This document shows positions 1 through 6,105 of a DNA stretch of 6,841 bases, piece after piece. A model generated the notes under the pieces. It was given only the letters and a program-made list of their open reading frames with translations, searched no databases and was not told the origin of the DNA. Both the position numbers and the translations under genes were made by a program. The stretch is taken from NCBI GenBank assembly GCA_949747745.1, contig CATKFT010000102.1:1-6841 (forward strand), given 5' to 3'. This DNA is from an uncultured Clostridia bacterium. GTDB lineage: Bacteria; Bacillota_A; Clostridia; TANB77; CAG-508. Every line of letters starts with the position of its first letter. The stretch's first letter is position 1.

Positions 1-406
1 ACTTCATATATGTATCTGAATCAGCAGAACAACAGAAACGAGGATTTATTAAGTATTGATTTTTTGTATCAGTTTCTATTATAAAATTTTCCTTTATAAG
101 TTTATTTTTATAAGTCCAAAAATTTTGCCTTTGCATTTTTAAGTTTTTTAAAATGTTCTTTTTTCCTAAATTTATTAAATTTGTTCTTTGATTTCTATTG
201 ATTATACAATATTTTAACAGTGTAAATTCTTTATTAGATAAATTTTCAATTTTTTCAAATTCATCATTATATATTGAAAAAAATCCTTTTTCTCTTCCAT
301 TCTTCTTTGTTTCTTTAAAATTCAATGTTCCTTCAGATATTATTTCTCCAGAACTATTTATCATTGTTACATTTTCACTTTTGTAGCTCGTTTCATTCTT
401 TCGCAT
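1..406 (-). CDS. RepL-like plasmid replication protein, module 1 (partial, C-terminus outside window)
   Basis: An open frame runs leftward from ATG at 406 to the window edge (135 residues seen). It has a strong ribosome binding site, AAGGAGG, 6 bases before the ATG. The N-terminus has a G-E-I-I motif (residues 20-23). A probable winged-helix part follows (about 58-123) and ends in Y-L-I-N-P-R-F (118-124). This order, an early GEI motif followed by a small winged helix closing on a hydrophobic-N-P strand, is what I recall of the RepL family (Firmicute plasmid replication protein). Inference: it starts replication of this replicon. The gene sits behind an attenuator and an antisense RNA, the usual setting for a plasmid rep gene. 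It shares architecture but little obvious sequence with the protein at 5000-5596. It could instead be another winged-helix plasmid regulator. Confidence 0.7.
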   Translation of the reverse strand, partial: MRKNETSYKSENVTMINSSGEIISEGTLNFKETKKNGREKGFFSIYNDEFEKIENLSNKEFTLLKYCIINRNQRTNLINLGKKNILKNLKMQRQNFWTYKNKLIKENFIIETDTKNQYLINPRFCCSADSDTYMK

Positions 407-738: not shown

Positions 739-767
739 TTGACAAGTAGTTATCTATAATATATAAT
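739..767 (+). promoter_or_regulatory. Consensus promoter in front of the folded element, copy 1
   Basis: TTGACA (739-744), 17 bases, TATAAT (762-767). Conserved in copy 2 (5963-5991), although several spacer bases differ. It points toward the folded element and away from rep. Confidence 0.8.
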
Positions 768-850
768 AACAATACCAAAGAGAGGATAAGGAGCAACGCA
801 GGGGTGCGACTCTGAACGGCTCAATGGTCGACGGTATTGTTTAACAATAC
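768..850 (+). ncRNA. Structured RNA or single-strand DNA element of unknown family, copy 1
   Basis: An outer stem AACAATACC (768-776) with GGTATTGTT (833-841) encloses a conserved core. The core holds hairpin CGCA-GGGG-TGCG (797-808), a possible GAGC/GCTC helix (791-794 with 819-822) and a possible AGAG/CTCT pairing (779-782 with 810-813) that would make a pseudoknot. In copy 2 the core hairpin is CGCT-GGGG-AGCG, a compensatory change. AACAATAC recurs at 843-850, so GGTATTGTT can pair with either flank. The promoter at 739-767 predicts a start near 774, inside the outer stem. The stem may therefore be only partly in the RNA and may act in single-stranded DNA. I match it to no known RNA family. 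Confidence 0.65.
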
Positions 851-880
851 AAAAAAGGGTAGATATAATCTACTCTTCTT
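851..880. terminator. Bidirectional terminator between folded element and mob1
   Basis: Stem GGGTAGAT/ATCTACTC (857-864 with 868-875). Rightward it is followed by TTCTTTTT, leftward by TTTTTT. It can end both the short rightward RNA and the leftward mob1 mRNA. It overlaps the region just after the mob1 stop codon. Confidence 0.85.
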
Positions 881-881
881 T

Positions 882-2093
882 TTATATTTCTAAATCATAA
901 TCATCTCGTTGCTTTTGTTCTTTGATATAATTAGAATCTTCTATATATAAATTATTGTTTCTTTTATCTTGATATATTTCTATTTTATTTTTTGGATCTA
1001 TATAAAGTAAATCTTGTAGTCCAATAAGTTTTTCTATTCTATTTACCATATCTTTTAACTTACTTTTTATAAAATCAATTACTTTTGGTTTGTTCCTAGT
1101 ATTAGTTTGTGATTCATAATCATTTAAAATTTGATTTTGAATAGGATCAAAAATATATTCTTCTTTCTTCAGCATATTCAAATCATTATTAACAACATTA
1201 TGTGCTTTTACTTCATTTTTTACTCTAGTCTTATATAATGACTGCATTTCCTCTACAAAGCTATAAACTTTATTTTCGTTTTCTTCGTAATTTCTAACAG
1301 AAAAATTTTCTATATCATAACCTTTTTTCAATTCTTTTAAGCAAGTTCCTTTTTCTTCGTTTATTACAAAATCACTAGCATTGCAAACATTTTTAACTAT
1401 TGATTTCAAATGATTATTTTTCTTTATATAACTTTCTTTAGGGTTGTTTTTTCCTATGTGTTTTTCAGAAAGTTCCTTATTTCTCTTTTCACTTTCTAAA
1501 GACCACTCAATCTTTAACATATCTTTTAAAAAAATCTCTTTACACTCATATACAAACTTTTGTGATTTAAAAAATTCGTTCTTATCAGTAAAGTTTCTAA
1601 TTCCACCTTTTTGTAATATCGTTCCTTTTTTTACTATTTTTACTGCATCAGCTTTTTTACATTTTTGTCCTTTTTCATTATAGTAATAAGTTCTAGCTGC
1701 TTTTCTTTCTTCTATTACTTCTGGTTCATTTAACTTTTGTCTTTCACTAAAAATCAAATGACAATGTCTGTTTACAACTCCCTTTTTATTATTTTGATGT
1801 ATAGCACAAGTACACTCTACTTTATATTTTTCTTTAAAAGTATCGCAAATTTCTTTTGCTGTAACACGAGAATCTTGTGGTATTCCTATTATTAGTTCTC
1901 TACTTTCACAACATTTTCCTCCAGCACTTACTTCTTTATGTCTTTGTTGACTTTCTTTTGCTAACATTATCCAGAAGTTAATATCAGTTGTATTATGATA
2001 ATCAATTATATTTTCTTGTTTCTTACCATTATTTATATAATTTATTCTTCCTTTAACATTAGTCAACTTTCTACTGCTCAAATACCCACTCAT
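882..2093 (-). CDS. MobA/MobL family relaxase (MOBQ type), module 1, complete
   Basis: 403 residues from ATG at 2093. I chose this start because AAAGGAAG lies 8 bases upstream; the in-frame GTG at 2102 touches the ribosome binding site and is unlikely. The N-terminus (S-G-Y-L-S-S-R-K-L-T-N-V-K-G-R-I-N-Y-I) is typical of Gram-positive MobA/MobL relaxases. The metal-binding H-x-H lies in N-R-H-C-H-L-I-F-S-E-R (His110, His112). E-x-R-E-L (63-67) and a conserved A-I-H (His99) support the fold. Tyr19 or Tyr4 is the likely nicking residue. Known role: it nicks oriT and leads the strand into a recipient, using another element's conjugation channel. The C-terminal half (from about residue 160) is Lys/Glu-rich, with no domain that I recognise. 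Promoter and operator are at 2128-2161 and the candidate oriT lies upstream. Confidence 0.93.
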   Translation of the reverse strand: MSGYLSSRKLTNVKGRINYINNGKKQENIIDYHNTTDINFWIMLAKESQQRHKEVSAGGKCCESRELIIGIPQDSRVTAKEICDTFKEKYKVECTCAIHQNNKKGVVNRHCHLIFSERQKLNEPEVIEERKAARTYYYNEKGQKCKKADAVKIVKKGTILQKGGIRNFTDKNEFFKSQKFVYECKEIFLKDMLKIEWSLESEKRNKELSEKHIGKNNPKESYIKKNNHLKSIVKNVCNASDFVINEEKGTCLKELKKGYDIENFSVRNYEENENKVYSFVEEMQSLYKTRVKNEVKAHNVVNNDLNMLKKEEYIFDPIQNQILNDYESQTNTRNKPKVIDFIKSKLKDMVNRIEKLIGLQDLLYIDPKNKIEIYQDKRNNNLYIEDSNYIKEQKQRDDYDLEI

Positions 2094-2127
2094 ACAACTC
2101 ACTTCCTTTACAAAATTTACTTAAAAT

Positions 2128-2411: not shown

Positions 2412-2438
2412 GGGTTTATTACGATTCACTCTGGTATT
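2412..2438 (+). repeat. 27-bp perfect inverted repeat, left copy
   Basis: All 27 bases are the exact reverse complement of 4781-4807, and the match stops on both sides. This copy abuts the -35 box of the gene at 2543; the other copy lies just after the last gene of the block. It may be a recombination site or a regulator binding site. No recombinase gene is present in the window. Confidence 0.9.
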
Positions 2439-3040: not shown

Positions 3041-3069
3041 TTGACATATAATAAAAATGGTGTTATAAT
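3041..3069 (+). promoter_or_regulatory. Promoter of the short RNA at 3076
   Basis: TTGACA (3041-3046), 17 bases, TATAAT (3064-3069), a perfect consensus with no gene behind it. Confidence 0.85.
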
Positions 3070-3075
3070 ACTATT

Positions 3076-3147
3076 AGCTTAATTGTTGAGTGTATCCTGG
3101 CAATGAAGCTCCAGATATGTGGGGAGAAACGCATATCTCTTTTTTTT
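3076..3147 (+). ncRNA. Short RNA, probable type I antitoxin
   Basis: A transcript of about 70 nt between a perfect promoter and a terminator (AGATATGT/GCATATCT, 3113-3138, then T8). Its segment at 3090-3099, GTGTATCCTG, also occurs at 3281-3290, which on the minus strand covers the start codon of the small ORF at 3199-3294. The following GAAGCTCC (3105-3112) can pair, with one G-U pair and one mismatch, with the GGGGGTGTTTC ribosome-binding region of that ORF. The RNA can therefore bind the toxin-like mRNA in trans over its start site, as RNA II does in the par locus of pAD1. The length also fits RNA II. Confidence 0.65.
3113..3147 (+). terminator. Terminator of the short RNA
   Basis: Stem AGATATGT/GCATATCT (one G-T pair), 10-base loop, then CTTTTTTTT. 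It would also stop readthrough from the 2543-3022 gene. Confidence 0.85.
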
Positions 3148-3186: not shown

Positions 3187-3198
3187 AACTAAACTCAA

Positions 3199-3294
3199 TT
3201 AGTTTTTACTCTCGTTGCTTTGGTATTTTTTTAATTCTTCTTTCAATCTTTCGATTTCTTGAAGTAATATAAATACCAATGTGTATCCTGTCAC
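3199..3294 (-). CDS. 31-residue ORF, candidate type I toxin
   Basis: The start is GTG at 3294, with GAGGGGG 9 bases upstream; no other in-frame start exists before a stop. The peptide has a short hydrophobic stretch (Y-T-L-V-F-I-L-L, residues 4-11), then a charged helix (Q-E-I-E-R-L-K-E-E-L-K-K-Y) and a polar tail. Its mRNA has its own promoter (3343-3371) and terminator (3158-3186). It begins with a hairpin, and a second hairpin masks the ribosome binding site (3306-3320). A short RNA with matching repeats converges on it. All this matches type I toxin loci of the Fst/par kind. Against it, the hydrophobic part is shorter than a normal membrane helix and I see no Fst signature, so the toxin call is inference. 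Confidence 0.5.
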   Translation of the reverse strand: MTGYTLVFILLQEIERLKEELKKYQSNESKN

Positions 3295-3305
3295 AACGAA
3301 ACACC

Positions 3306-4780: not shown

Positions 4781-4807
4781 AATACCAGAGTGAATCGTAA
4801 TAAACCC
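4781..4807 (-). repeat. 27-bp perfect inverted repeat, right copy
   Basis: Exact reverse complement of 2412-2438. It begins 3 bases after the stop codon of the second RHH gene. Confidence 0.9.
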
Positions 4808-4999: not shown

Positions 5000-5596
5000 T
5001 TATAACATATTTTTTAAATCTTCTATCAATTTTTTTATATCTTCTTTTGATAGTTTTGTTGCTTTCTTTTTTATCTTTGCTAATTCTATTTTACTATCTT
5101 GGCTTAATTCTTCTCCAAATTGTTCTTCATATAATTGACTTGTTGTATAAGCATTTCCCCTACTAAACAAATCTACATTTAATGTAAATACATTTTTTTT
5201 GTTTGGTTTTTGAAATATGTATTTATTTTCTATCAAAAATCTTCTATCTTGATAAAATTTTGTGCTTAAACTATAACTTTCAATAAATTTTTTATCAAAA
5301 CTAAATTCATTATTCCAATTTACTGTATTTATAATATATGTAAGCATTTTACTTATTGCTCTATTCTTTTTATTTAATGAACAAAGTCTAGCAAGTTCTT
5401 CTGGATTCCCAACATAGAAAGTTCCTTTTTTTCTTTTTGTTTCGGAATTATAGTTTGTTTCTGTAGATAAAATTTCTCCTGTTTGCTGATCTACCTTTTG
5501 TTTAATTTCTGTTATTCCCTTTTTCTCAAAGAGATTTAATTGTTCTTTTTCTTCTTCTGGTAAAGAATTGTATGTTTTGTTTATTTCTTCATTCAT
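5000..5596 (-). CDS. RepL-like plasmid replication protein, module 2
   Basis: 198 residues; AGGAGG lies 10 bases before the ATG. After a charged N-terminus comes D-Q-Q-T-G-E-I (36-42). A helical part follows (60-95), then a winged-helix-like region with helix S-L-S-T-K-F-Y-Q-D-R-R-F-L-I-E (109-123) and closing strand V-F-T-L-N-V-D-L-F-S-R-G (136-147). The last 45 residues are charged helices. The T-G-E-I motif and the closing strand match my memory of RepL, as in the module 1 protein, but the two are only distantly alike. Antisense RNA 2, an attenuator and the rep promoter lie upstream, and iteron-like repeats downstream. Function as initiator is inferred. Confidence 0.75.
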   Translation of the reverse strand: MNEEINKTYNSLPEEEKEQLNLFEKKGITEIKQKVDQQTGEILSTETNYNSETKRKKGTFYVGNPEELARLCSLNKKNRAISKMLTYIINTVNWNNEFSFDKKFIESYSLSTKFYQDRRFLIENKYIFQKPNKKNVFTLNVDLFSRGNAYTTSQLYEEQFGEELSQDSKIELAKIKKKATKLSKEDIKKLIEDLKNML

Positions 5597-5696: not shown

Positions 5697-5726
5697 TTGA
5701 CATATCTTACTGAAATGACTTATAAT
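5697..5726 (+). promoter_or_regulatory. Promoter of antisense RNA 2
   Basis: TTGACA (5697-5702), 18 bases, TATAAT (5721-5726); points against the rep2 leader. Confidence 0.8.
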
Positions 5727-5732
5727 TGTTGT

Positions 5733-5818
5733 ATAAGGTAAGACTTATTTTGTTTGCTTATATCCATAAGTCTTACAAGATATGTCTTGCTCCGTGAAAG
5801 CAAGGCATTATTTTTTTA
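5733..5818 (+). ncRNA. Antisense (counter-transcribed) RNA controlling rep2
   Basis: About 86 nt. The first stem-loop has a perfect 11-bp stem, GTAAGACTTAT/ATAAGTCTTAC (5738-5748 with 5766-5776), and a 17-base loop. It ends in terminator TGTCTTGC/GCAAGGCA (5783-5790 with 5800-5807, one U-G pair), then TTATTTTTTTAT. Layout is as in antisense RNA 1, but both stems and loops differ, so the two RNAs should not cross-regulate. Confidence 0.8.
5783..5818 (+). terminator. Terminator of antisense RNA 2
   Basis: 8-bp stem with a 9-base loop (TCCGTGAAA), then TTATTTTTTTAT. Confidence 0.8.
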
Positions 5819-5962: not shown

Positions 5963-5991
5963 TTGACAACTACTTATCTATGATATATAAT
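5963..5991 (+). promoter_or_regulatory. Consensus promoter in front of the folded element, copy 2
   Basis: TTGACA (5963-5968), 17 bases, TATAAT (5986-5991). Confidence 0.8.
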
Positions 5992-6074
5992 AACAACACC
6001 AAAGAGAGGATAAGGAGCAACGCTGGGGAGCGACTCTGAACGGCTCAATGGTCGACGGTATTGTTTAACAATAC
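5992..6074 (+). ncRNA. Structured RNA or single-strand DNA element of unknown family, copy 2
   Basis: Same plan as 768-850. The outer stem is AACAACACC (5992-6000) with GGTATTGTT (6057-6065), with one C-A mismatch relative to copy 1. The core hairpin CGCT-GGGG-AGCG (6021-6032) differs from copy 1 by a swapped base pair. The rest of the core is almost unchanged, and AACAATAC follows at 6067-6074. Confidence 0.65.
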
Positions 6075-6105
6075 AAAAAAAGGGTAGAAATAATCTACTC
6101 TTTTT
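6075..6105. terminator. Bidirectional terminator between folded element and mob2
   Basis: Stem GGGTAGA/TCTACTC (6082-6088 with 6094-6100), followed rightward by TTTTTAT and leftward by TTTTTTT. Confidence 0.85.

Follow-up and report, generated by a model that had tools for sequence, protein, structure and literature searches.

A putative small-RNA gene, rigidly conserved and removable, on small plasmids of uncultured Clostridium-like bacteria

What is the short element that stands, twice over and each time behind a perfect promoter, between a rep promoter and the end of a relaxase-like gene in this DNA? An earlier note had proposed a plasmid small RNA, a riboregulator, or a single-strand promoter or origin. 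We analyzed the window, i.e. the whole stretch of 6,841 nucleotides, which is part of a low-G+C small plasmid, together with its relatives in sequence databases. The best reading, which we hold with moderate confidence, is that the element is a new, rigidly conserved, stand-alone plasmid small-RNA gene.

Anatomy and relatives of the element

The window holds two replicon units. Each consists of a rep gene on the - strand, a ctRNA-like gene on the + strand over the rep leader, a rep promoter on the - strand, and the element, on which the end of a relaxase-like gene converges. The features are as follows.

2..403, - strand: rep 1, extending past the window edge; Pfam family, none
487-600 and 5697-5810, + strand: ctRNA-like genes over the rep leaders (promoters at 487 and 5697)
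646-618 and 5869-5841, - strand: rep promoters, one per replicon unit
739..767, + strand: perfect promoter of copy 1 (TTGACA-17-TATAAT, 12/12)
774..840, + strand: conserved putative RNA core of copy 1 (67 nt; 63/67 invariant in 10 copies)
797..808, + strand: predicted hairpin CGCA-GGGG-TGCG with the compensatory pair 800/805
834..850, + strand: predicted second hairpin of copy 1 (GTATTGT-TTA-ACAATAC; innermost pair broken in 2 of 6 distinct sequences)
855..877, + strand: intrinsic terminator of copy 1; stems vary between plasmids
882..2102, - strand: mob, relaxase-like protein, converging on element copy 1
2412..2438, - strand: 27-bp site, copy A (AATACCAGAGTGAATCGTAATAAACCC), upstream of mob
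4781..4807, + strand: 27-bp site, copy B, inverted relative to A, past the rep end
5000..5596, - strand: rep 2, divergent RepL-like initiator
5963..5991, + strand: perfect promoter of copy 2 (TTGACA-17-TATAAT, 12/12)
5998..6064, + strand: conserved putative RNA core of copy 2 (T800/A805 version)
6058..6074, + strand: predicted second hairpin of copy 2
6077..6105, + strand: intrinsic terminator of copy 2

The perfect promoter was present twice and a terminator closed both copies, as the earlier note had stated. Perfect promoters with a spacer of 16-18 numbered seven in the window, compared with a mean of 0.008 in 500 dinucleotide shuffles. The two copies are direct repeats with 91% identity over 171 nt. 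Identity between them was 75/77 at 774-850, 31/35 at 739-773, and 42/50 at 689-738, which agreed with the claim that the core is more conserved than its surroundings. The conserved unit of about 80 bases described in that note was real, but it is better divided into a 67-nt core (774-840), a less conserved hairpin reaching 850, and a terminator of variable sequence. From its distance to the -10 box, base 774 is predicted to be the first transcribed one. The terminator at 855-877 probably serves both strands, as the opposite-strand mob gene stops at 882.

A pattern scan of the species-genome collection, which required 27 exact letters and so missed variants, yielded seven contigs. The contigs L001-L007 are labelled uncultured Clostridium sp. 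(four), Clostridiaceae, Lachnospiraceae, and Tenericutes. A covariance model built from nine copies, with stricter filters in runs over more than 40 genomes, matched all seven genomes behind the scanned contigs. Among sampled relatives, in sets that overlap and include known bearers, it matched 3 of 385 genomes of one order, 2 of 299 (one of them the rejected L026), and 1 of 193; further samples gave 3 of 195 (G701 being new), another 3 of 195, and 1 of 6. The bearers thus comprise nine plasmids, namely the window and eight further contigs (L001-L007 and L043). Several matches were rejected. The match in L026 (31.7 bits) lies antisense in a long frame that resembles a PTS gene by eye and was regarded as chance, as were the matches of about 10 bits in L036-L038 (E 0.55-0.58). 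All eight pattern matches in IMG/VR (L008-L015) had the pattern alone in common.

PLSDB gave no match to 301 bases at 1e-5 and, when E was allowed to reach 10, three matches that were short and weak; no relevant match to the element was found among phages (INPHARED) or in IMG/VR. The core letters had no match in the literature searched. No Rfam 15 family reached its gathering threshold over the element; the best match, sraA at 800-887, scored 25.3 bits with the whole window and 19.4 bits with 118 bases against a threshold of 56. The earlier note had likewise recognized no family.

Constraint and fold across the copies

Two sets of 10 copies were compared. One included L043 and omitted the second, end-truncated copy of L001 and one of the two L006 copies; the other included both L006 copies and omitted L043. 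The core was invariant at 63 of 67 positions in the set with L043 and at 64 of 67 in the set without it. In the former set, the promoter spacer (7/17) and bases 768-773 (3/6) together gave 10 invariant positions of 23, which differed from the core with a Fisher p of 1e-6. In the latter set, 5/6 positions of the -35 box and 6/6 of the -10 box were invariant, compared with 15/94 in the ungapped upstream region 640-733 and 4/30 at 851-880. Strict constraint started at 774, seven bases past the -10 box, and a terminator-like hairpin with T's followed in 10/10 copies, built from about four different stem sequences. This constraint profile is that of a transcribed, terminated RNA whose first base would be about 774. 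The kept hexamers, the drifting spacer, the onset of constraint, the ubiquitous terminator-like hairpin, and the lack of an Rfam family all argue for the plasmid small RNA proposed earlier. The element also has the parts of a plasmid small-RNA gene in the broad sense: its own promoter, a conserved and putatively transcribed region, and a terminator.

Four core positions vary in the set with L043. Positions 800 and 805 change together and keep their pair, position 790 turns a G-U pair with 813 into A-U in L043, and position 823 is unpaired. The compensatory change from A800-T805 in copy 1 to T800-A805 in copy 2, around GGGG, had been pointed out in the earlier note and proved real; the 10 copies show both paired states and no intermediate. 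The covariation amounts to this one pair, and its score was reached by 32 of 500 shuffles. The test for further covariation that the note had suggested was run with a mixed outcome: the 10 copies gave no second compensatory pair, while the change at 790/813 kept pairing, as did U-A to U-G at 835/849 in the second hairpin, which two of the six distinct sequences show and which pairs on the + strand only; the innermost pair 840/844 of that hairpin was the one broken.

The nested fold consists of helices 774-777/825-828, 780-782/820-822, 790-793/810-813, and 797-800/805-808, plus the hairpin 834-850. Across six distinct sequences, 98.5% of its cells were paired, compared with 98.6% for a pseudoknotted fold. 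The crossing pairings of the suggested pseudoknot can be drawn, but because the nested fold pairs the same letters equally well, a pseudoknot is neither shown nor needed. The paired cells amounted to 98.5% on the + strand and 93.2% on the - strand, a comparison biased toward the + strand since the tested structure was drawn from it. The element with its terminator folded strongly (z -4.6 and -5.3). Without the terminator, the core and second hairpin gave z of -2.0 and -2.4 against shuffles, whereas the opposite strand gave -3.2 and -3.5; as the opposite strand folds relatively better, the RNA strand is not favored by thermodynamics. The hairpin 797-808 likely forms, and the remainder of the fold is plausible. 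The support for a fold is real but thin, consisting of one compensatory pair and single changes that mostly keep pairing.

A removable block on diverse plasmid backbones

The sole relative of rep 1 among L001-L007 is found in L007 (82%). Rep 2 itself had no RepL match, but a relative with 67% identity to it (P0089) scores above the Pfam cut-off for RepL; no relative of rep 2 was found in PLSDB at 1e-5, and none was confirmed among viral contigs. The best local match between rep 1 and rep 2 covers 18/57 residues (E 0.019). Rep 1 and rep 2 thus have little in common, so the element is found beside two distinct initiators. The mob protein had no Pfam match at 0.001. With 27% identity in 211 aligned columns (E 4e-12), it resembles a protein from a plasmid of Streptococcus thermophilus that itself passes Pfam Relaxase (PF03432). 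The HxH of mob at 113/115 was invariant in nine sequences, and the predicted mob structure was of low confidence (mean pLDDT 62). A hairpin region lies directly upstream of mob at about 2126-2190 (CGCTACTTTNNNAAAGTAGC on the mob strand, within 2126-2166). The CGCTACTTTNNNAAAGTAGC hairpin recurs in the S. thermophilus plasmid, where it occupies the corresponding position next to the relaxase; the DNA match is weak (E 0.1-0.3). This region is probably the transfer origin of this relaxase group, and a better candidate for it than the element; its position beside the relaxase makes it credible, as the weak DNA match alone would be insufficient.

A search with rep 2 in 385 genomes gave seven with a match, four of which (L035-L038) were without the element. 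L036-L038 align with bearers upstream and are without a block of about 115 bp: at the expected block start they run straight into a terminator-like hairpin and then the GCACAAATTGTAATTT motif, as judged by eye (the automatic alignment scatters the downstream part). L036 equals L037 where they overlap, and the independent non-bearers number only three. The existence of these sister plasmids marks the element as a removable module. The bearer L003 falls with L036-L038 in the rep tree (support 0.999), and the mob tree joins L004 to L038 and L006 to L036/L037 (1.000 each). Since both trees mix bearers and non-bearers, the element has been gained or lost independently of the rep and mob lineages.

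The GCACAAATTGTAATTT motif is also found 3' of the L004 terminator and, with one letter changed, in L006. By eye, other genes are present at this place in L004, L006, and L036-L038, and the motif may mark a cargo boundary. Cargo genes between the rep unit and mob were seen at L004:3980-5295, which we take to be an acetyltransferase and a MerR-type regulator by eye, and at L037:1354-2268, presumably an rRNA-methylase-like protein, likewise by eye.

The ctRNA-like genes of the two rep leaders differ from each other. Type 1 was seen in L002-L007 and L043, type 2 in L001 and L035-L038, and the L001 contig end also holds a type-1 piece. One plasmid thus holds two replicon units of different rep and ctRNA types, and L001, from another bin, is arranged similarly. 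In the sections of one paper that treat pSN2/RepL plasmids, their copy-number control is given as not previously identified (PMC5703833).

Candidate functions

A single-strand priming site (sso/ssi), at which RNA polymerase or primase would start the second strand after rolling-circle replication or transfer, is an unlikely identity for the element, at roughly the level of one chance among several. RepL plasmids are classed as rolling-circle (PMC5703833). The element lies between the rep promoter and mob, it is accessory as ssos can be, and its transcript, antisense to rep and mob, would run in the primer direction if the rep/mob coding strand were displaced. However, CS-6, counted as TAGCGA or its variant TAGCGT, was found only at 521, 2158, and 4556, never within the element, and RSB (TTTATGCCGAGAAAA) had no match within 3 mismatches in the whole window. 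In addition, the change in the second hairpin pairs on the + strand and not on the - strand. When either single strand of 10 copies was folded, with no positive-control sso, the mean pairing probability was 0.28-0.65 for the -35 box and 0.20-0.62 for the -10 box, which indicated no consistent promoter hairpin. RSB and CS-6 (TAGCGA) are described as marks of known single-strand origins (PMC6395029). The element resembles ssoA, ssoU, ssoT, and ssoW, as these are portrayed in PMC5703833 and PMC6395029, in being small, structured, and accessory and in the involvement of RNA polymerase, but it differs from them in having neither RSB nor CS-6 and perhaps also in that its promoter is not consistently paired in the single strand. 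For these reasons, the single-strand promoter or origin of the earlier note is unsupported.

A DNA-level site for recombination, segregation, or protein binding, lying under a promoter by chance and tied to the inverted 27-bp sites, is somewhat less probable still. With up to 6 mismatches allowed, 9/9 bearers had two inverted copies of AATACCAGAGTNNATCGNNANAAACCC, the first upstream of mob and the second past the rep end; with up to 4 allowed, a single site was found in each of L002 and L003. This type-1 site was found in 0/4 of the element-less L035-L038 when 6 mismatches were allowed. At these two places, L037 carries a different, perfect 60-bp inverted pair. L038 has a single copy of the 60-bp repeat at its contig start, L036 ends short of both spots, and no inverted pair of the 60-bp type was seen in L035. 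Such an association, along with the intermixing of bearers and non-bearers in the rep and mob trees, would suit a DNA site. With three independent non-bearers, however, the co-occurrence of element and 27-bp site is suggestive only, and the constraint, falling on the hexamers and the transcribed part, fits an RNA gene. A resemblance of the 5' part of the element to the 27-bp site looked striking but was not significant, as 125 and 189 of 2000 shuffles were as good. No recombinase was found among the nine window proteins scanned with Pfam. It is a long shot that the RNA, as the trans half, and the inverted type-specific sites, as the cis half, form one maintenance or exchange module, with relatives using another site type without the RNA; if so, the rep-mob backbone would be bounded by a site-specific system that depends on an RNA.

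Plasmid ctRNAs commonly regulate by antisense pairing with plasmid messages, and the element resembles a rep ctRNA in being a small putative plasmid RNA with its own promoter and terminator. It is nevertheless quite improbable that the element is an antisense regulator of this kind for the rep or mob messages of its own plasmid. It converges on mob in the window, but in 5/9 plasmids it lies about 0.5 kb or more from mob; it stands upstream of the rep promoter, outside the rep message and its leader, and the rep leaders are already covered by the separate ctRNA-like genes at about 487-600 and 5697-5810. Furthermore, the best duplexes between core and plasmid were no better than those of shuffled cores (five plasmids, six shuffles each). 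That the block has no selected function and owes the identity of its copies to recent spread or gene conversion is very improbable: two copies do occur in one plasmid, and L001 shows shuffling at the element (preceding flank like L002/L003, following flank like window copy 2), but in the 21 pairs of seven representative copies the core differed at 0-3/67 positions and the spacer and leader of the same block at 4-13/23, a drift beside a near-constant core that is not accounted for by an unchanged block having spread recently.

If the element is a small-RNA gene, transcription from its strong promoter would begin near 774 and stop at the terminator near 877, giving an RNA of about 100 nt with a compact folded core and a second hairpin. 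Its carriers, small plasmids of uncultured Clostridium-like bacteria that encode RepL-like initiators and a relaxase, would hold it as a module of about 115 bp that can be removed. The core is near letter-perfect while rep, mob, and neighboring sequences diverge or are exchanged, and no pairing target was found in the plasmid; hence, we tentatively suggest, by analogy, that the RNA may act in trans through a conserved host partner, either a protein or the transcription or translation machinery. Near-invariance over 67 letters could also be expected of a protein-binding DNA site. The RNA might adjust plasmid maintenance or host behavior, as Rcd RNA does for ColE1. Rcd RNA, which has its own promoter, is likewise a short regulatory RNA of a small plasmid, and the comparison concerns the mode of action only, not the sequence; Rcd lies in cer, whereas the element lies outside any known dimer-resolution site. 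Rcd RNA is described as a 70-nt RNA of the ColE1 cer site that acts in trans on host tryptophanase in plasmid stability (PMC3973702).

If transcribed, the element would represent a family of RNAs that Rfam 15 does not contain, carried by small plasmids of uncultured Clostridium-like bacteria. Its core is better conserved than rep and mob, the proteins that these plasmids encode. Conservation this rigid points to a demanding partner, which would offer a handle on the life of cryptic plasmids in hardly cultured hosts, and the question can be tested directly on the natural pairs of plasmids that have or lack the block.

Four other candidate roles were rejected. As for a CsrA decoy, CsrA was found in 1/7 host genomes, which are draft bins in which absence is uncertain, and one GGA motif is lost in L043. 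A Shine-Dalgarno mimic is at odds with the change of AAGGAG to AAAGAG in L043. By eye, a coding role is contradicted by the compensatory change, which alters codons, and by start and stop, which are not kept. A cis-acting riboswitch or leader would need a gene on the same strand; in the window, the terminator and then the end of mob on the opposite strand follow.

Apart from the element, the interval 3041-3143 holds a further perfect promoter, with TG, and behind it a short stretch that ends in a hairpin, and an unlisted GTG frame of about 31 codons was noticed by eye near 3195-3295 on the opposite strand. The stretch is possibly a second small RNA or, with the GTG frame, a small toxin-antitoxin pair. 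The promoter part of 3041-3143 is kept in several relatives.
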